Assembly (NCBI RefSeq): GCF_012184385.1
Contig: NZ_VSRL01000073.1
Location: 1-36,547, forward strand
Direction of reading: 5' to 3'
DNA from: Lentzea indica
GTDB taxonomy: Bacteria; Actinomycetota; Actinomycetes; Mycobacteriales; Pseudonocardiaceae
Length of the DNA: 36,547 nucleotides
Shown here: positions 1-8,363 of the stretch, piece by piece
Numbering within the stretch: the stretch's first letter is position 1
How the letters are laid out: each line of letters begins with the position of its first letter
Translations under genes and position numbers: made by a program
Notes under the pieces: generated by a model
Told to the model about the DNA's origin: nothing
Database searches by the model: none
What the model saw: only the letters and a program-made list of their open reading frames with translations

Positions 1-220
1 CCACGGGTCGGCCGGGTGACGGGCACGACCGGCGTGGTCGGCCTGGTCACCGCCGGCGGCACCGCAGGGCGAGTGACCTTCTTCGTCACCTGCGGCTTCG
101 CCGGTGCCGGCTTGGGTTTCGGCTGCGCGGCTTCTTGCGTTCGGTCGCGCCGCACACGTCGCACTCGCGAACCGACATGACGTTGTTCGTGTCGCATTTG
201 GCGCACTGCCACGTGCTCAC
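1..220 (-). CDS. RanBP2-type zinc-finger protein with Pro-rich tail (partial, frameshifted)
   Basis: The GTG start at 218-220 overlaps the TGA of the preceding gene (GTGA), so translation is probably coupled. The first 25 residues fit the RanBP2 zinc-finger pattern exactly: W-x-C-x2-C-x3-N-x6-C-x2-C (W4, C6, C9, N13, C20, C23). The frame then breaks near 125-145. The start frame stops at 86, while another frame continues to the window edge with a Pro/Lys/Val/Thr-rich linker (PKPKPAPAKPQVTKKVTRPA and onward). One missing or extra base would join the two. The gene runs off the left edge, so any further domain is unseen. RanBP2 fingers bind RNA or protein; TerY-P kinases are often associated with zinc ribbons, so a partner role is inferred. 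Confidence 0.6.
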
Positions 221-972
221 GGTTCGGCCGCCTCGCTGGGCTGGACCATGTCGATGATCTCCGCGGTCTCCGGTGACGGGCGGAAGCACAGCCAGTCGCC
301 GCCCTCCGGTGCCGTCCGCACGCGCAGCCTGGGCAGCGAGGACGGTGACGGCTTCTCCGCGGGAACCGCGTCGACGACCAGAGGCGCGTCGTGGCCTACA
401 GGCGGCGGCACCGCTTCTTTCACCTGTTCTCGCACCGGTTCGCGCATCTGAGGCATGGGCGGCGGCGCGACCGGCGGCACGTTCCCCCGTTCCACCATCG
501 GCCGGACCTGGCGCCTGCGCTTCGGCCGATCCGGGTACAGCGCGTCGACGAAGCCGGTCAGCTCCCGCTCGCGTTCGCGCGGGTAGAGCAGCTCGACCAC
601 GGTGGCCGCCGCTGTGGGCGACTCGCCGATCCCCGTCTCGACGACCACCCTGAGCTTGACCAGGGCACCCGCCGGGAGAAGATCCATCGTGCACGCCGCC
701 ACCGGAGCCACGACCAGCGTGGACCCCCGATGCTGGCATTTGTTCGTCATCACCACGACCCGCTCGCCGACCACGCTGAGCGCGCCGGTGTCACCCTGGA
801 AGTAGAACCGCGCTTCCGGGTTGCGGCCGAACATGTGGTCCCACAGCTGAAGGTTGACGTGCCCGCTGGGAACACCCCGCTCGCCCCTCCACCGCTCCGA
901 GTACCTGCCCGTGTCGTCCGCGAACCACCCCGACGACTCGTCGTCAGGTCTGCGACCGATCCTGAACACCAC
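217..972 (-). CDS. Unrecognised 251-aa protein of the kinase/phosphatase operon
   Basis: I do not recognise this family. The N-terminal 140 or so residues are rich in alternating hydrophobic/polar segments (VVVMTNK, LVVAPVA, VKLRVVVETG, AATVVELLY) and look like a compact beta-rich domain. From about residue 150 the chain is Pro/Glu/Val-rich and probably disordered, with PRLRVRT near residue 213. Similar RLR elements occur in the tails of the kinase and the SPFH-like protein of the same operon. No signal peptide or membrane segment is seen. The start is GTG at 970-972, followed by a second GTG; no earlier in-frame start lies in the 13-nt gap after the vWA gene. The stop overlaps the start of the zinc-finger gene. 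It is probably a substrate or adaptor of the phospho-signalling module, by context only. Confidence 0.6.
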   Translation of the reverse strand: MVFRIGRRPDDESSGWFADDTGRYSERWRGERGVPSGHVNLQLWDHMFGRNPEARFYFQGDTGALSVVGERVVVMTNKCQHRGSTLVVAPVAACTMDLLPAGALVKLRVVVETGIGESPTAAATVVELLYPRERERELTGFVDALYPDRPKRRRQVRPMVERGNVPPVAPPPMPQMREPVREQVKEAVPPPVGHDAPLVVDAVPAEKPSPSSLPRLRVRTAPEGGDWLCFRPSPETAEIIDMVQPSEAAEP

Positions 973-985
973 GTGGACCCGCCCG

Positions 986-1675
986 TCAGAGACTGTTGGC
1001 GATCGTGTTGATGATCTCGTCCATCTCCCACTCCTCCAGCCCTTCGCCCGCTTCCGAGGGGAAGAACAGGGTGTGGTTCCACTGGTCGGCGATGTCCTCC
1101 CACGGCTGGTCCTCCGGAGCGAACAGCAGCAAGCGCTTCGCCGAGTTCTCCATCAGCGCATCACTGCTCTGCGCGTGGCCCCACTGGGAGAACAGCTCCT
1201 CCATCGAGTGCGGTACGGACTGCGGGTACGTGCGCACCGACACCTGCGACGGGCTGCCGAGCGGATGCGCTGGCGCGTCGGTGAACAGGACGATGACGTG
1301 ACGGCGGCGGTCGAGCCCCTGCTCCCACGGCGCCTGCACGGCGAGTGCCAGCGCCTCCAGCCCGGACTCGGGGATGTCACCGCCACCCCGTGCGGTCAGG
1401 TCGCGCACGAACCGCTCGAACTCGACCGCGCCGTCGGGGAAGGTGAGGAAGTCCGTCTGCTCGATGGCGTCGTCGGCGCGGTCGCCGAAGTCGCGGAACC
1501 CGATCACCTTCAGCCGCAGCTGGCTGATCGACCGGCCCTTCTCCTCCATCGCCGCCGCCAGCCTGGTGTGGAAGGACAACGCGCTGTCCTTCACGCGGTC
1601 CAGCGTCCGCTTCATGCTCATGGTCGCGTCGATGCACATGACGATGTCCACCGCGTACTTCAGGCTCTCGTTCAC
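986..1675 (-). CDS. von Willebrand factor A domain protein (TerY-like)
   Basis: A 229-aa single-domain vWA protein. The metal-ion-dependent adhesion site is visible: DATMS at residues 16-20 (a D-x-T-x-S form of DxSxS) after the hydrophobic strand VDIVMCI, a Gly/Asp loop (GGGDIPESG) and a third acidic loop (LFTDAP). TerY-type vWA proteins of the TerY-P triad bind a metal and are thought to act as scaffolds beside a kinase and a PP2C phosphatase, and both are the immediate upstream genes here. The GTG start (1673-1675) overlaps the kinase TGA as GTGA, which rules out the longer upstream reading of the frame. No signal peptide is seen, so it is cytoplasmic. The family call is firm; the TerY role rests on domain and context. 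Confidence 0.88.
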   Translation of the reverse strand: MNESLKYAVDIVMCIDATMSMKRTLDRVKDSALSFHTRLAAAMEEKGRSISQLRLKVIGFRDFGDRADDAIEQTDFLTFPDGAVEFERFVRDLTARGGGDIPESGLEALALAVQAPWEQGLDRRRHVIVLFTDAPAHPLGSPSQVSVRTYPQSVPHSMEELFSQWGHAQSSDALMENSAKRLLLFAPEDQPWEDIADQWNHTLFFPSEAGEGLEEWEMDEIINTIANSL

Positions 1676-2721
1676 GAGGTCTCCTTGCCGTTGAGATTGA
1701 TGCGCAGCCGGGGACCGGTGACCGGCCTTGGCGGTGGGGGCGGTGGTGCGGCACCGGTGAGGTTGATGCGCAACCGGCTGCTCCGTGCGGCCGGCGCCAC
1801 CGACGGGACGTGCACGGTCGGGGCTTCCGCGCGGACGCGAAGCTCCAGCATCGGTTCGTCGACCATCGCCCGAAGCTCGCTCACCGCGGGCCGGTGGCAC
1901 GGGTCGGCTGCCGTCGCCCGGCACAGCGCGTCCGTGAGATCCGGGTGCAGCCGGCGGTCGAACATCAGCTTGGCGCCCGCCTTCACCGCCTCACCCGCCG
2001 ACGCGAACCCGTCAGGGAACGACGGCTGCTCACCGGTGAGGTAGCGGTGCACGATCAGCGCGAGCGCGAAGACGTCGACAGCGGTGGTCAGCTGGTCAGG
2101 CCCGACCGAGTGGTCGTTCTGCATGTACCGCAACCACTCCGGCGCGCCGTGCACCGGGTCGCCGCCGATCTGGTCGCGCGGTTTCGGGTCGCCGGACACG
2201 TACGCGTCGTCGAAGTCGATGAGCTTCGCGGTGTAGAAACCCGTCTCCGTCGGGCGGTGCAGCAGGATGTTGTCCGGCTTCAGATCGCCGTGCACGATCT
2301 CGTGCTCGTGCAGGAACCGCAGGCTCGCCATCAGAGTGAGCAGCAGGATCCGCTTCTCCTTGACGCTCAGCTCGTGCGGGTTCGGCACGTCCGCGGGGTG
2401 CAGCCGTTCGGTGATCTTGTAGTAGCGGGTCTTCTCGAAGAAGAAGTCCTTTGCCATCACCAGATTTCCGGCACCGGTGTCCTTCGGGTCGAGCCGGTTC
2501 ATCACCGAGGTGTGCCTGCGTTCGAACTCGGCGCACTGAGCGAGCAGGCGCTCACGGTCCTCGGGTGAGGCCATGGAACCCGGCCGTTTCGGGTCGAGGA
2601 ACTCCTTCACGAAGTACTCGTGGCCGTCCTTCTCCGCGAACGCCCACATGCACTGCCCTGCGTCCTTGTTGGACGGACGGGAGGTGATCTCGTAGCCGTG
2701 CAGCACCTGACCGAGCTTCAT
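1672..2721 (-). CDS. Ser/Thr protein kinase with Pro-rich tail carrying a repeated RLRIN motif
   Basis: A 349-aa Hanks-type kinase with all core motifs: ATP-binding Lys39 (YFVKEF), catalytic loop HGDLKPDN (144-151), DFD in place of DFG (169-171) and GAPEW in place of the APE segment. It should be catalytically active. No transmembrane segment or PASTA domain is present, unlike PknB-type receptors, so it is cytosolic. The tail after about residue 300 is Ala/Pro-rich and holds two copies of RLRINL(T/N)G separated by a polyproline stretch, 22 codons apart. The ATG (2719-2721) overlaps the PP2C stop as ATGA, which fixes the start. With the PP2C and vWA genes it forms the TerY-P triad; the substrate is unknown. 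Confidence 0.92.
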   Translation of the reverse strand: MKLGQVLHGYEITSRPSNKDAGQCMWAFAEKDGHEYFVKEFLDPKRPGSMASPEDRERLLAQCAEFERRHTSVMNRLDPKDTGAGNLVMAKDFFFEKTRYYKITERLHPADVPNPHELSVKEKRILLLTLMASLRFLHEHEIVHGDLKPDNILLHRPTETGFYTAKLIDFDDAYVSGDPKPRDQIGGDPVHGAPEWLRYMQNDHSVGPDQLTTAVDVFALALIVHRYLTGEQPSFPDGFASAGEAVKAGAKLMFDRRLHPDLTDALCRATAADPCHRPAVSELRAMVDEPMLELRVRAEAPTVHVPSVAPAARSSRLRINLTGAAPPPPPPRPVTGPRLRINLNGKETS

Positions 2722-3707
2722 CGAGGCTCCTTCACGGGCATCAGGCGCTCGTAGTCCTCGCGGTACCGCGCCCACGAGTCCGCGCGCACCGCGGTGAGCG
2801 TCTCCAGGTCGCCGGGTGCGATGGCGGCGATCTGGGCCGCGTGCTCACGCACGACGGCGGTCCGGCCGCTCAGGTCATGACGCAGCTGCGAGAACCCGGT
2901 GAACCCGAGCGCGACGATCGCCAGCGACGCGTCGTCACCCGTGTAGCCGACCACCTCGTCCGCGAGCGCGTTTCCCCACTGCTGCATGGTTTCCGACCGT
3001 TCGAGGGTGCGCAGCAGAACGTCCTCGAACTCCGCGGGCGTTGTCACGTAACCGAAGTAGCCGTCGGTCGCACACACCAGCACGCACGGTACCTTCGTGC
3101 TGCCACGCGCAATGTGCACCTCGAACGGCCGGTCGGCGCACACCATGTTCGTCATCGGCGGGTCCTGGGTGAGCAGCTCCAGCGCGTCCGACGACTCGGT
3201 GTCGTCTCTGGTCACCTGCTGCAGGCCGTCCTGGGCGTCGAGCACGTAGGCGCGGGAATCTCCTGCCCACAGCGCGGCCCACTCGGCCGTCTCGTCGTCA
3301 CCCCAGCGGTAATGCAGCGCGGCCATGGTGGTCGGCAGCTCCCGCCGCATCGTGCCGAGGATCTTGCGACGGGCCGTGCCCCGTGCCTTCACGAGTGCGG
3401 TGGCGATGTGCTCATGCAGGTCCTCGTGCACCCGGTCGGTGCCGACGAACCAGTCCTCGACGAGCGCGCGGGTGAACCGCGAGGCGAGCCATGCCTGCGT
3501 GCGTTCGGCACCGCTCGCCGATGTGCCGGCGGCCGCCGCACCCGCGCCGCCCGCGCCGTCGAACACACCGACGACGCCCTCGCCGCTGGAGAACTGGTGG
3601 ACGAACAGCGGTTCGGCGTCCTCTCCCCGCCCCGGTTTCTTCTCCGTCCACACGCTCGCCGCCAGCAGCCACTCGCTCTCCGCCCACGCGACGCCCCTGC
3701 CGGTCAT
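2718..3707 (-). CDS. PP2C-family Ser/Thr protein phosphatase
   Basis: A 329-aa phosphatase with the PPM/PP2C metal-binding motifs in order: GRGEDAE near residue 27, GVFDGAGG near 47, AGDSRAYVL, CATDGYFGYV and TGDDASLAIVAL. These acidic residues coordinate the two Mn/Mg ions, so activity is expected. No transmembrane helix or regulatory domain is seen; the last 70 or so residues form a helical extension beyond the catalytic core. The ATG at 3705-3707 overlaps the upstream TGA (ATGA), and its own stop overlaps the kinase start. It probably opposes the adjacent kinase on shared targets within the operon. Confidence 0.93.
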   Translation of the reverse strand: MTGRGVAWAESEWLLAASVWTEKKPGRGEDAEPLFVHQFSSGEGVVGVFDGAGGAGAAAAGTSASGAERTQAWLASRFTRALVEDWFVGTDRVHEDLHEHIATALVKARGTARRKILGTMRRELPTTMAALHYRWGDDETAEWAALWAGDSRAYVLDAQDGLQQVTRDDTESSDALELLTQDPPMTNMVCADRPFEVHIARGSTKVPCVLVCATDGYFGYVTTPAEFEDVLLRTLERSETMQQWGNALADEVVGYTGDDASLAIVALGFTGFSQLRHDLSGRTAVVREHAAQIAAIAPGDLETLTAVRADSWARYREDYERLMPVKEPR

Positions 3708-4717
3708 CGGCCCCTCCGCTCGGCCGCGGAGCCGCGCAGCCTGCTGACCCGCTTCTCCGGTGCGGGTGGAGGTTCCGGAACGGGCGGCGGCGCGACCTCC
3801 CTCGGTTCGCGCGGTTCCACCGGCTCCGCCTCTCCGCCCGCGGTCACCTCGGCGGGCCCGCCATCGCGACGGGACGCGATGACGTCCCTGCGGGACAGGC
3901 GTTTGCGCTCCGGTGGCTTCAGCATCGCCGGGTCGCCGAAGATCTTGCCGAACACGTGCCTGCGCGCCTCGCGCATCTCCACCGGGTCCGCGTCCTCGTC
4001 GGTGGAGATGCGCACCATCTCGATCATGCGGTCCTTGTCGCGGTCGACGGCCTCCGCCTCGGCCGCGAGCAGCGAGGTCGGGTCGCCGTCGTGCTTGACG
4101 AGATGCTGCGCGATGAGCTCCTCGCGCCCGCCGTCGACGACACCGCGCATGTCCCTGCGGCGCATCGACTCGATTCGCATGTCGCGGGTGTGGTCGTAGT
4201 ACTCGGACTTGTTGAGCAGTTTCACGTGGAAGTTGCCGAGCGCGATGCCACCACGGCCGCGCAACACCTCCAGCTCCCGCTTCAACGTCTTCAGCGCGGT
4301 GTTGTACTCGGACACGTCGAACTCGCTGAGGACGTCGGACATGATGCCGGCGAGACTCGGCTGCACCGCCCTGGTCATGTCCCGGATGCCGCTGCGCACG
4401 ATCTCCACCGGATCCGTGACCTGGCAGGTGAACCGGACCTCCGCACGCTGCAGGAAACCGGGGTCGGCGGTCGGTATGTCGTCCTCGACGAACCTGCACT
4501 GCACCACGCGCAACGTGACCCGCGCGGCCCGCCGGTAGCGGCCGAGCACCGCGCCCGGCACCTTCTCGCCCGCGCTCACCAGCACCGGGTCGCCACGCAT
4601 GGGCTCCAGCACCAGCGCCGTGTCCATGGACGGGCTCTCCAGCCGGTCCAGCAGCCTCACCGCTCTCGGGAAGATCTCCTCGACGATCGGGTCGTAGGTG
4701 TCGATGTCTCCGATCAC
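3704..4717 (-). CDS. SPFH/band-7-like protein
   Basis: A 337-aa protein. Residues of about 45-170 resemble an SPFH (stomatin/prohibitin/band 7) domain: strands RVTLRVVQCRFVE and AEVRFTCQVTDPVEI, a helical stretch through SEFDVSEYNTALKTLKREL, then a Gly-rich turn leading to ALGNFHVKLL. A charged helical region follows (to about residue 260) and then a Pro/Glu-rich tail ending in RVSRLRGS. SPFH proteins oligomerise, usually at membranes, but no N-terminal membrane anchor is seen here. The GTG start (4715-4717) overlaps the ATPase stop as GTGA. The family call comes from pattern recognition of strand spacing and the F-x-V-x-DP signature; a profile search could overturn it. It could be a scaffold recruiting the phospho-signalling proteins. 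Confidence 0.5.
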   Translation of the reverse strand: MIGDIDTYDPIVEEIFPRAVRLLDRLESPSMDTALVLEPMRGDPVLVSAGEKVPGAVLGRYRRAARVTLRVVQCRFVEDDIPTADPGFLQRAEVRFTCQVTDPVEIVRSGIRDMTRAVQPSLAGIMSDVLSEFDVSEYNTALKTLKRELEVLRGRGGIALGNFHVKLLNKSEYYDHTRDMRIESMRRRDMRGVVDGGREELIAQHLVKHDGDPTSLLAAEAEAVDRDKDRMIEMVRISTDEDADPVEMREARRHVFGKIFGDPAMLKPPERKRLSRRDVIASRRDGGPAEVTAGGEAEPVEPREPREVAPPPVPEPPPAPEKRVSRLRGSAAERRGR

Positions 4718-6846
4718 CGCAGCGCCTCCTCCGCTTCCACGAGATCGTCGTGCGCCCGAGCCGCGGCGTGCGAGGGATCGCGCCAGTCCTCGGCCCAGAG
4801 CTCCAGCTGGTGCAGCAGATCGTCTGATTCCCGCTCGCCGAGGTCGGTGATGCCCGCGAGCACGTCCAGCACCGCGTCGTAGGCGGCGTGGTCGTGTTCG
4901 GCGAGCCGCAGCCACTCCCGCAGCACGTCGAGCGCGAGCGGGCGCACCCGCCGTTCGCACAGCGCGCGAGCCCACAGCACGGGCAGGTCCTCGTAGTGCT
5001 GCGCCGACTTCCGCAGCAGCACCGGCCAGCGCACCGTCCGGCCGGACTTCGGAGGGCGGGCGGCGATGACGAACGCGATCAGCACCTTCACCGCGAAGTC
5101 ACCGCGCCGGTGCGCGTCCGTCCAGTCCCGCAGCGTCGGCACCGTACGGACGTCGGCGCCATCCTCGACGAGCCGCGCCACGCTGAGCGCGGCGGGTTCG
5201 AGCAGGCTCCAGTCGTCGGCGGCCAGCAGCTCACGCAGCAACCACAAGGCGCGCAACGGGCTCGCGAGACCAGTGAGCCCACCCGCCGCCAGGGCGGCTG
5301 TCTGTGGCAACGGCAGGCCTTCGTCCCGTTTGGACTGTTCGGCGAACTCACCGAGCAGCTGCCAGACCCGGTCCACGTACTCGTCGTTCAACCCCACCAC
5401 GCCGAGCGCGAGCGCCGCGCTGTGCCGTTCCTCCGGCAGGTCGCTGCCCGCCCACTGCAACAGGAACGTGTGCAGCGCGTGCTGGAAGTCGCCGCGGGCG
5501 AGGAACCCCGCCGCCGTGGCCGCGCGGGCACGCACCTCGACGTCGGAGTGCCCTGCCATGTCGCGCAGCCACTCCTGGATGGCGTCGCGCATGCCGTCCA
5601 GCTCGTGCCAGGCGTGGGACAGGACGGTGAGCCGCAGGTCGGCGTTGCGGAACCGGACGATCTCCCCCGCGACCGCGCCGGTGCCGGTGCCGGTGGCGAG
5701 TTCGATCCACGGGTGGTCCGACCGCAGCAGGCGTCGCATGTGCGTGACCGGTTCCGCGGTCTTGCCGGCCAGCTTGCGGTGGAGGTCGGCCGCACCATCG
5801 GACACGGTGAGGTAGCCGCAGCCCTCCAGCACCGAGGTGGCGACCGCGAACGCGATCTCCGCCGGATCGACGGTGTCGCCGAACCACTCCGCGACCTGCT
5901 CCTGAGGGTCACGCAACCCGGCCACGACGGCCGCGAGGTCCTCGCGGTTGCCGACCGCGGTGAGGATCTCGGCGGCCGCACGCACCGCGAACCTCGGCCG
6001 GGGTCGTTCCCGCAGCAGCGCGTCGATGTCGGTGGACCGCAGCTCGCGCAACACGTCGCCCGGCGCCTTGAGGTCCGAGCACCTCAGCCGGGCCTCGAAC
6101 ACCTCGTGCGGGCTGGGCGCGGTGACGTTCTCCAGCACGAACTCGTGGCGCTTGGCCGCCATGGCGAGCTTGCCCCGTGGGGGTCCGGTGACGACGACGA
6201 GGAAGCTGCCGTCCTTGTTCAGCAGCTCACGGGCACGCGTCAGCCAGACGTCGTCGAGCACCTCAGCGCTGGCAAGTGGCTTCGACCCGCGAACGCGTTT
6301 GGGAGTCGAAGACTGCTCGTCCAGCACGACGTACCCGCACTCGCGCATCGGCGGTGTCCAGGTCGGATCGGCGCAGATGTCGACCGGCAGCTGTCGCACG
6401 CGCACCGGACCGGCGCCCTTGAGCACCCTCCGAAGCAGGTGCAGCGCCGCCGTGTATCGCCCGGTGCCCGTGGGGCCGGAGACGACGAGCAGTTTGCGGT
6501 GCACGAGCCGTTCGAACGCCTCGTCGTACCAGTCGGGTTGGACGTAGGCAGAGGTGTAGTCGTCGAGATAAGCGTCGGAGTACTCGGTGGGACCGATACT
6601 CGCTCTCGCAGAGGAGCGATTGCCCCTGCCGCCGACGTTCATATCGCCGCTGATGGACGTGCTTCCGTTGAACACGACAGTAGCGCCGCCGCGCAGGAAC
6701 TTGTGTGCGATCTCGGCGGAACGCGCACCCTCGAGCCGGTCCGCATTTGGCGAACCGAGCGCGGCGAGAGCGCCATCCGCTCCGACCTTCACGGAAAGGC
6801 GCGGGACGTCAGCCCCGCCGTCCGCTTCCGGAACAGGCGTGGTCAT
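4714..6846 (-). CDS. STAND-like P-loop ATPase with N-terminal shared motif and alpha-solenoid tail
   Basis: A 710-aa protein. Residues 57-71 (VVFNGSTSISGDMNV) match the C-terminus of the TIR protein encoded just upstream. A P-loop follows at 124-130 (GPTGTGR, with Arg where the Walker A Lys is expected) and a Walker B strand VVLDE at 173-177, then a winged-helix-like region. The second half is made of Ala/Leu-rich helical repeats (for example VRARAATAAGFLARG and HSAALALGVVGL), consistent with HEAT-type repeats. This is the architecture of STAND-type sensor ATPases in bacterial conflict systems: effector-linking N-terminus, NTPase core, repeat sensor. The Arg substitution suggests weak or altered nucleotide hydrolysis. 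The ATG at 6844-6846 has a weak GAGA Shine-Dalgarno that may be sequestered in a hairpin. Its stop overlaps the next start. Confidence 0.72.
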   Translation of the reverse strand: MTTPVPEADGGADVPRLSVKVGADGALAALGSPNADRLEGARSAEIAHKFLRGGATVVFNGSTSISGDMNVGGRGNRSSARASIGPTEYSDAYLDDYTSAYVQPDWYDEAFERLVHRKLLVVSGPTGTGRYTAALHLLRRVLKGAGPVRVRQLPVDICADPTWTPPMRECGYVVLDEQSSTPKRVRGSKPLASAEVLDDVWLTRARELLNKDGSFLVVVTGPPRGKLAMAAKRHEFVLENVTAPSPHEVFEARLRCSDLKAPGDVLRELRSTDIDALLRERPRPRFAVRAAAEILTAVGNREDLAAVVAGLRDPQEQVAEWFGDTVDPAEIAFAVATSVLEGCGYLTVSDGAADLHRKLAGKTAEPVTHMRRLLRSDHPWIELATGTGTGAVAGEIVRFRNADLRLTVLSHAWHELDGMRDAIQEWLRDMAGHSDVEVRARAATAAGFLARGDFQHALHTFLLQWAGSDLPEERHSAALALGVVGLNDEYVDRVWQLLGEFAEQSKRDEGLPLPQTAALAAGGLTGLASPLRALWLLRELLAADDWSLLEPAALSVARLVEDGADVRTVPTLRDWTDAHRRGDFAVKVLIAFVIAARPPKSGRTVRWPVLLRKSAQHYEDLPVLWARALCERRVRPLALDVLREWLRLAEHDHAAYDAVLDVLAGITDLGERESDDLLHQLELWAEDWRDPSHAAARAHDDLVEAEEALR

Positions 6847-6849
6847 TCA

Positions 6850-6888
6850 TTCTCACAAAGTTGTTGAACCGCTTTCACGCGGTGAGAA
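6850..6888 (-). promoter_or_regulatory. Stem-loop in the TIR-ATPase junction covering the ATPase ribosome binding site
   Basis: In the mRNA, TTCTCAC (6882-6888) can pair with GTGAGAA (6850-6856), enclosing an inner hairpin ACCGC-tttcac-GCGGT on the plus strand at 6868-6883. The 3' arm contains the only Shine-Dalgarno-like element before the ATPase ATG. This is the one large intergenic gap between overlapping genes of the operon, and the fold could lower ATPase translation relative to TIR. Seen as sequence symmetry only. Confidence 0.35.
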
Positions 6889-6893
6889 GCGAA

Positions 6894-7457
6894 TCAGTTC
6901 ACGTTGAAGTCACCGGCGATGTCGACACGGTCGTTGAACACGGCACCGACCTTCTCCGCGTGCCAGGTCACCCTCGGCCGCTCGATGTCGCGAACGGCCA
7001 CCTCTGGCACGAGCTCGGTCAGGCTCGCGACGAGCGCGGCCACGTCGAGGTGACTCTCGCGCCACCGCACCCGCACGTCCTGGCGTGCGGCCAGCGGACG
7101 CAGCTCGTCCGGCAGGTCAGCGGGTTTGAGCCGCTCAGCCCCCATGAGCACCGGCACGACTCGCACGTCGTGCTCGAACGCCTCGACGATCTCCCTGCGG
7201 ATGAAGTCGTGCGGCCGGTCGAGCAACCGGCTGCCGTCGGACTGCGTCCCCGTCCAGCCCTCCCCGATGACGACCAGCAGCACCGTGCTCTCCCGCACGG
7301 CCCGCATGATGTCGGGATCGAAGTCGTCACCCGGTGTCAGCGATCGGGCATCGCGAAAGACCTGTCCCTCGCCGAAGTGAGCGGTGAGCGCGGTGTCGAT
7401 GAGGCAGGCGCCATAAGGCACGTCGGAACTGCGGTAGCTGATGAAAATCTTGCCCAA
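6894..7457 (-). CDS. TIR-domain protein with C-terminal motif shared with the adjacent ATPase
   Basis: A 187-aa protein. Residues 3-130 or so are a TIR domain: KIFISYRSSD at 3-12, FRDARSL at 34-40, the strand LLVVIG at 60-65, and Glu89 in DFIRREI at the position of the catalytic Glu of NADase TIRs. The C-terminus (172-186) reads AVFNDRVDIAGDFNV and parallels the ATPase N-terminal motif. The start is TTG at 7455-7457, chosen because GAGGG lies 7 nt upstream; no nearer ATG or GTG fits. It is the first gene of the operon. Bacterial TIR effectors degrade NAD or make signalling nucleotides, leading to growth arrest; here it is probably the effector switched on by the ATPase. Function is inferred, the TIR call is firm. 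Confidence 0.88.
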   Translation of the reverse strand: MGKIFISYRSSDVPYGACLIDTALTAHFGEGQVFRDARSLTPGDDFDPDIMRAVRESTVLLVVIGEGWTGTQSDGSRLLDRPHDFIRREIVEAFEHDVRVVPVLMGAERLKPADLPDELRPLAARQDVRVRWRESHLDVAALVASLTELVPEVAVRDIERPRVTWHAEKVGAVFNDRVDIAGDFNVN

Positions 7458-7703: not shown

Positions 7704-8363
7704 TCAGAACAGGCGGAACTCGTCCGGTTCGATCCCGCGCAACGCGTCGTAGTCCAGCACCACGCACCGGATCCCGCGGTCCTCGGCCAGCACCCGCGCC
7801 TGCGGCTTGATCTGCTGCGCCGCGAACACGCCCCGGACCGGCGCCAGCAGCGGATCGCGGTTGAGCAGCTCCAGGTACCTGGTCAGCTGCTCGACACCGT
7901 CGATCTCGCCGCGCCGCTTGATCTCCACGGCCACCGACCCACCGGAGGAGTCACGGCACATCAGGTCGACCGGGCCGATGGGGGTCGGGAACTCGCGGCG
8001 CACCAACGTCCAGCCGTCGCCCAGGGTGGTCACGTGCTCGGCGAGCAGCTTCTGCAGGTCGGCTTCGACACCGTCCTTCTGCAGGCCCGGTTCGGGGCCG
8101 AGCTCGTGCTTGGAGTCGTGCAGAACCTCTTCGAGGGTGATGATCAGCTTCTCCCCCGCCTTGTTCTGCACTGTCCAGATGTCCGGGTCCTCGATCAGCC
8201 AGCAGGGCGGGCTCATCCAGTTCAACGGCTTGTACGCGCGGTCGTCGGAGTGGATCGACACCGAGCCGTCGGCCTTGATCAGCAGCAGTCGCTGAGCCAT
8301 CGGCAGATGGGCGGTGAGTCGTCCGACGTAGTCGACCTGGCAGCGAGCGATGACGAGACGCAC
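7704..8363 (-). CDS. nucS: Mismatch-specific endonuclease NucS (EndoMS)
   Basis: A 219-aa protein recognisable as NucS along its whole length, from [16 protein letters not shown] onward. NucS replaces MutS/MutL in most Actinobacteria and many Archaea: it cuts both strands at G/T, G/G and T/T mismatches. The RecB-like nuclease residues D133 (PVDLM), E147 and K149 (VEIKRRG) have the same spacing as D144/E158/K160 of the mycobacterial enzyme. It ends in DEFRLF, resembling the C-terminal beta-clamp-binding motif of the family. The start is GTG at 8361-8363, with no Shine-Dalgarno but a -10 hexamer 6 nt before it (leaderless). It is followed by a hairpin terminator and divergent from a Nudix gene. 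Confidence 0.95.

Follow-up and report, generated by a model that had tools for sequence, protein, structure and literature searches.

A short motif shared by a TIR protein and the adjacent AAA+/HEAT-like ATPase of Lentzea indica, and its probable role in pairing effector and switch

What connects a TIR-domain protein with the large ATPase encoded next to it in the actinomycete Lentzea indica? Both genes are located in a stretch of 36,547 nucleotides (contig NZ_VSRL01000073.1, positions 1 to 36,547; hereafter the window), on the same strand (-) and with 47 bp between them: the gene of the TIR effector (6894..7457, 187 amino acids, TTG start) is followed by the ATPase gene (4714..6846, 710 amino acids). 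The proteins share a short segment at their facing ends. We propose, with a probability of roughly 0.7, that the two segments form a matched pair of homotypic signalling motifs, by which an NLR-like ATPase with AAA+ and HEAT-repeat parts recruits and clusters a SARM1-like TIR protein, via a stack that is probably cross-beta.

The shared segment reads VFN....I.GD.NV and comprises residues 172-186 of the TIR protein (AVFNDRVDIAGDFNV; 6900..6944, -), whose C-terminal end is AVFNDRVDIAGDFNVN, as well as residues 57-71 of the ATPase (VVFNGSTSISGDMNV; 6634..6678, -). Residues and coordinates of both segments had been given in an earlier, sequence-based note on this DNA (the original prediction) and agree with the re-read gene translations. 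A Smith-Waterman comparison of the last 50 residues of the TIR protein with the first 110 residues of the ATPase results in a score of 41 (p = 0.003, 2000 shuffles); in a wide comparison of 70 with 330 residues, 5 of 200 shuffles equal the real score of the window's pair. Taken by itself, the sequence match of this pair is a modest to weak, merely suggestive piece of evidence, and it is the homologues that make the case strong. A location inside unrelated folded domains, which the original prediction had named as evidence against its claim, is not what AlphaFold2 predicts: both segments are outside the folded parts of the models, with a per-residue confidence (pLDDT) below 50 for TIR residues 159-177 and 183-187 and for ATPase residues 54-83.

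Homologues of the ATPase were sought in 297 genomes from the family of L. indica, with E <= 1e-10 counted as a match. A match is found in 43 of these genomes, and G059, G119, G125 and G184 harbor two such ATPases each. Sixteen close ATPases, the window's included, match with E <= 3.6e-93 over most of their length. In all 16 loci a TIR gene is directly upstream of the ATPase gene, at a spacing that ranges from a 20 bp overlap to a 47 bp gap for the chosen starts. Ten of the 16 loci are assigned to Crossiella, Amycolatopsis, Actinophytocola, Actinokineospora, Goodfellowiella, Actinocrispum and Saccharothrix. Of the 24 genomes listed from the same genus, only the window's own has a close copy, and the distribution of the close ATPase is therefore patchy. 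A class-wide search resulted in matches with E <= 1e-12 in 13 of 394 genomes, again including the window's, the closest others at E 2.5e-81 and 2.5e-60, and 72,556 plasmid records contained no relative of the ATPase. A further scan contributed two Amycolatopsis and two Actinomadura loci (4 of its 14, the other 10 being already in the set). Together with the window, 43 of the 46 other family-search matches and all 12 new class-search matches, these make up 60 loci, which are denoted by L-numbers below; the family-search matches left out are G055 and G108 (both G086-like; L026, L030) and G138, whose match is cut by a contig end. Pair tests comprise 57 of the 60 loci, since L056 and L081 have no co-directional gene ending <= 400 bp upstream, and in L082 the contig ends upstream of the ATPase. 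Genes in the relatives' loci were called by a simple script, and some of the starts are wrong.

A segment of the same kind is found at the same two places in close relatives. The consensus is roughly N-[VIL]-F-x-G-x-[IVF]-x-V-x-G-D-F-x-x-G on the ATPase side and [VN]-x-[QN]-x-x-[RD]-[VIF]-x-[VI]-x-G-D-F-[NH]-x-G in the TIR tail, with many members deviating from either at one place or more. Phe59 of the ATPase (the F of VFN) and Phe184 of the TIR protein (the F of GDF) are identical in all 16 pairs, the other motif positions vary. Conservation of one motif with loss of the other had been named as a further point that would tell against a functional pair; all 16 close pairs retain a recognisable segment on both sides, but individual changes are one-sided, and the pair in L135, described below, fails this test. 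Other changes have occurred in both partners: the sister loci L039 and L041 have VEEF (ATPase) and VETF (TIR protein), and L131, which is outside the 16, has RDF in ATPase and effector alike. Among the TIR matches listed, at least 14 besides the window's reach query residue 171 or beyond, 11 of which are TIRs adjoining this ATPase. For the other 4 of the 15 TIRs adjoining this ATPase, the match stops at query residue 154-155 because their tails are divergent; the remaining matches among those listed end at query residue 170 or earlier. We note that the TIR protein of L038 (10057-10677) contains three tandem VVQA-type units (KVVQAEHIDRVVQADHVDKLWQAEHM) ahead of the GDF in its tail.

The similarity between the two sides extends to sequence profiles. 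Profiles of the ATPase segment and of the TIR tail, built separately from segments that were picked because they bear the motif, align in hhalign with a probability of 95.2% (P = 2.7e-8, 18 columns). Compared with the 16 full-length TIR proteins, the ATPase-segment profile matches 10 at E 4.5e-6 to 0.041, placed in the C-terminal tail, and 5 at E 0.18 to 1.7. Conversely, the TIR-tail profile matches the N-terminal region of 11 of the 16 ATPases at E 5.6e-5 to 0.08, and 4 more at E 0.39 to 1.8 (all E-values of these searches refer to a set of 16 sequences). The 16 pairs, which are related sequences and not independent samples, give a Fisher p of 8e-14, with scores of 35.1 for own and 30.0 for swapped partners (permutation p = 0.003). 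In 38 loci with ATPases of < 60% identity, the mean score is 36.2 for own and 24.9 for swapped pairs (p = 1e-5); none of 100,000 permutations attains the observed mean, and the own partner ranks first in 11 rows and among the top three in 19. Own pairs exceed swapped pairs in the close clade alone (p = 0.006, n = 15) as well as in the remote loci alone (p = 1e-5, n = 23). In this test the N-terminal region of the ATPase is mis-cut in at least L080, L083, L092 and L094; three ways of cutting it, including a simple long window, each reached the lowest attainable permutation p for the 38 loci. Pair by pair, p is <= 0.05 in 31 and <= 0.01 in 22 of the 57 loci. Of the 23 matches that a hand-made regular expression has in 233,583 amino acids of called genes, 18 are in the tail or N-terminal region, as expected; the count is descriptive because the expression was tuned on the same sequences.

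Beyond the 16 close loci, the effector may be a protein other than TIR. The clearest case of a swap is L131 (Amycolatopsis decaplanina), with a class III cyclase-like effector that is unrelated to TIR and bears the motif of its ATPase: the effector ends in NTLFAGPVTAHRDFVIN, and its NTLFAGPVTAHRDFVI is matched by NYFAAEVHAGRDFII in the ATPase (p <= 0.05). Five such cyclase-like effectors, aligned together (A4), match cyclases in the PDB with E 1.4e-7; Pfam recognised none of the three proteins of this type that were tested. L079 has a called protein of 120 amino acids without Pfam match, ending in VVFEEEVKVKGNFSF as compared to ALFNDTVTAGGGFS in the ATPase (p <= 0.05); the in-frame stretch before this protein resembles a BTAD region by eye. 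The motifs of remote ATPases are mostly unlike that of the window, yet many match within their locus (for example L054, L061, L080, L084, L087, L088, L096). Examples of such internally matched motifs are GNVNGDVVGRD/GDVTGDVVGRD, HAQQVFGGDQ/RAQQVFGGSQ and VVNEFHGPVDARRANFGF/VVNNFHGRVDAGGASFGF.

Three further observations concern the remote loci. Many remote ATPases (L048-L065, L080-L097) adjoin class III cyclase-like proteins, several of which have matched tails of their own. L081 has no operon: a divergent gene (3312-3956 of the oriented stretch), 865 bp off, encodes the end ISAGRDIYGPGYAAAPTTYNF, which is close to VQAGRDFLGPGYAAAPTNYNF in the N-terminal region of the ATPase. In L094, which stems from the window's genus, the protein encoded upstream has the end SYSVVFNGTTSIGTQHNGDAVHHNYF, and its VVFNGTTSIG resembles the VVFNGSTSIS of the window's ATPase, although the two ATPases are only remotely related.

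What are the two partners? The TIR domain extends over approximately residues 3-150 (Pfam TIR_2, E 2.9e-8), and its best solved relative is the TIR domain of SARM1, by sequence profile and by fold (Foldseek E 3.6e-7). Glu89 (7191..7193, -), the candidate catalytic glutamate, is invariant in 16 of 16 and lies within the stretch aligned to DWVHKE of SARM1, whose glutamate we take to be E642. The TIR protein is likely an NADase. The ATPase consists of an N-terminal low-confidence region, an AAA+-like part (residues ~84-320) and HEAT-like repeats (~320-710); its model aligns with AAA+ chains and with HEAT/ARM chains. An AAA+-like NTPase followed by superhelical repeats is also the layout of STAND/NLR proteins. 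The designation as an NLR-like ATPase in the original prediction has to be qualified: for the window's protein, Pfam gives nSTAND3 and HEAT_2 below cut-off and neither NACHT nor NB-ARC. The Walker A lysine of STAND/NLR proteins is replaced: the Walker-A-like loop GPTGTGRY (6454..6477, -) has Arg instead of the usual Lys, and neither G129 nor R130 varies among the 16 ATPases aligned. Outside the 16, the residue is Arg in L078, L138 and L141, apparently Gln in L131, and Lys in L135. A sequence search of solved structures with the ATPase gave nothing convincing (a single match, E 0.53). SAMD9, the top Foldseek match of the whole ATPase (E 8.8e-5), was not used, as the superposition has a TM score of 0.17 and a root-mean-square deviation of 26.5.

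Because relatives mostly keep the match, at times with a different enzyme, we suggest that the switch uses the tails to find its partner and to trigger it. The mechanism we infer is as follows. The HEAT-repeat half of the ATPase would sense, or be held by, something, and upon the trigger the AAA+ half would assemble into a ring that gathers many copies of the unstructured N-terminal motif. The gathered motifs would nucleate a beta-rich, probably cross-beta (amyloid-like) stack, which would capture the same motif at the TIR C-terminus by direct binding. The TIR domains clustered in this way would constitute an active NADase that depletes NAD or makes a signal nucleotide, and the infected or damaged cell would stop growing or die. 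The amyloid step is proposed because of the analogy with BASS (bacterial amyloid signalling sequence) pairs, for which TIR effectors are named and whose peptides aggregate; by this analogy, a cross-beta, BASS-like contact between the segments is likely.

Several observations weigh against this mechanism. The changes RDF (L031, L043, L044), GHF (L042) and GNF (L045) are confined to the TIR protein, and GGF in L038 is confined to the ATPase. Among the 16 full TIR proteins, that of L042 is without a match to the ATPase-segment profile, and among the 16 ATPases the window's own is not listed by the TIR-tail profile. The pairwise p exceeds 0.05 in 26 of the 57 loci (10 of 22 in the close clade, 16 of 35 remote), and the permutation tests ignore the relatedness of the loci. 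The tails of L141 (Actinomadura macrotermitis; effector BTAD by Pfam; VVTFNDKVRMRDFN and ALFQDSVEFAGDLN) and of L078 (a small protein with a hydrophobic first helix; NVFNEKVQISGDWN and ALFNDTVRFGGGF) are alike by eye, at p = 0.19 each, the BTAD effector of L138 has no significant tail match with its ATPase, and the gene upstream of the ATPase is apparently unrelated in L053 and L089. In L135 (Amycolatopsis iheyensis) the TIR protein and the ATPase are of the same families, but the tail of the TIR protein (3011-3616), HNTVHGPVHGTVFQTGKQIGGIFF, is without counterpart in the ATPase, and a six-frame pattern scan of this locus found no other copy of it; with its unlike G/H-rich tail, L135 possibly is a broken or re-wired pair. 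Ordinary ATP hydrolysis is uncertain for an ATPase with Arg in place of the Walker A Lys. Finally, a shared short motif could serve a non-amyloid contact.

Such a contact is the rival explanation that survives best. The segments would meet by beta-strand addition, or by co-binding to a third protein, and no amyloid stack would be formed. A candidate for the third protein is encoded by the gene downstream of the ATPase (3704..4717, -; 4 bp overlap with the ATPase stop), which belongs to a family with weak SPFH/Band-7 likeness. It is a constant neighbour: of the 22 close loci, 20 have a homologue adjoining the ATPase, and 15 of the 38 remote loci have a weak one. SPFH proteins oligomerise, which fits a contact via this protein, and the amyloid step of our mechanism is argued by analogy. 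We nevertheless consider this explanation unlikely, since the unrelated effector of L131 bears the ATPase's own motif, as predicted by a direct tail-to-tail contact, and the length and position of the segments fit the amyloid signalling pairs described in the accessible text of PMC8086366 and PMC7889193. The notion that the segment is a functionless leftover of an old duplication or exchange between adjacent genes draws on its location, since neighbouring genes can easily exchange sequence at the ends that face each other; this appears highly improbable, as ATPases 34-44% identical to the window's retain the segment on both sides, an unrelated effector type (L131) bears it, and the segments of L081 still match closely although its two genes diverge and have 865 bp between them. 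A chance resemblance between two G-rich termini of low complexity would be in line with the 5 of 200 shuffles in the wide comparison of the window's pair, but can practically be dismissed given the profile-profile match, the permutation tests and the conservation of both segments in homologues.

Tuning or localisation of the switch may be the role of the kinase, the phosphatase and the Band-7-like protein encoded alongside. The order downstream of the ATPase is third protein, PP2C-type phosphatase (2718..3707, -; Pfam PP2C_2, 7.8e-9), Ser/Thr protein kinase (1672..2721, -; Pkinase, 1.9e-18), stand-alone vWA protein (986..1675, -; VWA_4, 1e-9) and a last gene (217..972, -). The first four of these genes overlap the respective preceding gene by 4 bp; the last starts 13 bp beyond the vWA gene, is without Pfam match and has weak relatives in L039 and L041. 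Pfam Band_7 is matched by 5 of 17 third-gene homologues (best E 1.3e-6), the window's copy not being among them, and a sequence search of solved structures with the third protein gave no match. Some of the loci keep the phosphatase: the PP2C, kinase and vWA genes are all found downstream in the window, L032-L037, L039, L041, L078, L079 and L131; L138 and L141 have PP2C and kinase, L038 has vWA only, and L031, L040, L042-L045 and L135 have none of the three within the stretch examined. Kinase, PP2C and vWA genes also occur together in actinobacterial GAP1-N2 systems, as stated in accessible passages of Kaur et al. 2020 (PMC7159879). PADLOC, applied to 7 window proteins, gave partial TIR and kinase matches and nothing more, and NCBIfam gave zero matches at or above the curated cut-off for 9 proteins. 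Upstream of the TIR gene, the window contains a gene for the endonuclease NucS (7704-8363, -; NucS_C, 6.7e-41), which is apparently unrelated to the system.

How does the pair relate to known systems? In SARM1 and the plant TIR resistosomes, whose TIR NADase is activated by clustering, TIR domain and oligomeriser are part of one chain; here, with SARM1 as the best profile and fold match of the TIR protein, they are two proteins with a common motif. Membership in RHIM, or BASS3, was weighed in view of TIR tails with VxQA or a similar sequence (L033, L038, L042, L044, L045). The RHIM tetrad, [VI]-Q-x-G, is absent from the window's motif; among 22 loci it is present in one effector tail (L044) and in none of the ATPase N-terminal regions, and membership was rejected. 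The likeness to BASS is one of position and effector kind. According to the accessible text of the sources (Dyrka et al. 2020 J Mol Biol, via PMC7889193, PMC8086366, PMC12261475 and PMC9815663), BASS pairs likewise have a motif that is C-terminal in the effector and N-terminal in the receptor, are encoded by adjacent or overlapping genes and are found in filamentous actinobacteria; their reported effectors include Bell, TIR and CHAT domains, of which TIR is named in PMC7889193, and their peptides were shown to aggregate (PMC8086366). The window's pair has the same motif at both positions, adjacent genes and a TIR effector. It differs in its AAA+/HEAT-like receptor, which Pfam calls neither NACHT nor NB-ARC, and in the additional Band-7-like, PP2C, kinase and vWA genes of the operon. 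Effector-associated domains (EADs; Kaur et al. 2020, 2021; PMC7159879, PMC8195603), as far as the accessible passages describe them, are similar in that a homotypic adaptor is present on a core NTPase and a neighbouring effector, and in the swapping of effectors. However, 9 of 12 EADs are folded alpha-helical domains (PMC8195603), whereas the element shared here is short, ~15-20 residues, with a pLDDT below 50, and not a folded adaptor domain on both proteins.

The principle of motif pairing, also with TIR effectors, is already published; within the open-access papers searched, the motif, an ATPase family whose Walker A loop has Arg and not Lys, and the operon with Band-7, PP2C, kinase and vWA genes look like a new variation on it. 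Somewhat short of an even chance, we tentatively suggest that the window represents a large and apparently unrecognised class of actinobacterial immune signalosomes. Each would pair a Band-7-like protein with an AAA+/HEAT-like switch, the Walker A lysine of which is Arg in the window's clade. Every copy would use a private motif as an address for a TIR, class III cyclase-like, BTAD-type or small helical protein, and cross-talk between parallel systems of the same cell would thereby be avoided. Cell-death pathways of bacteria, fungi and animals are connected by amyloid signalling, and the bacterial families are, in the accessible text of PMC7889193, mostly Bell-domain effectors beside NLRs, with unknown outcome. 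In the system described here, the effector is a likely NADase, which offers a simple read-out, and the receptor appears to belong to a different NTPase family. Natural swaps exist as well: matched tails are borne by TIR proteins and, in the case of L131, by a cyclase-like effector. Whether the motifs act as addresses, and how specific co-existing motifs are, can therefore be tested directly.

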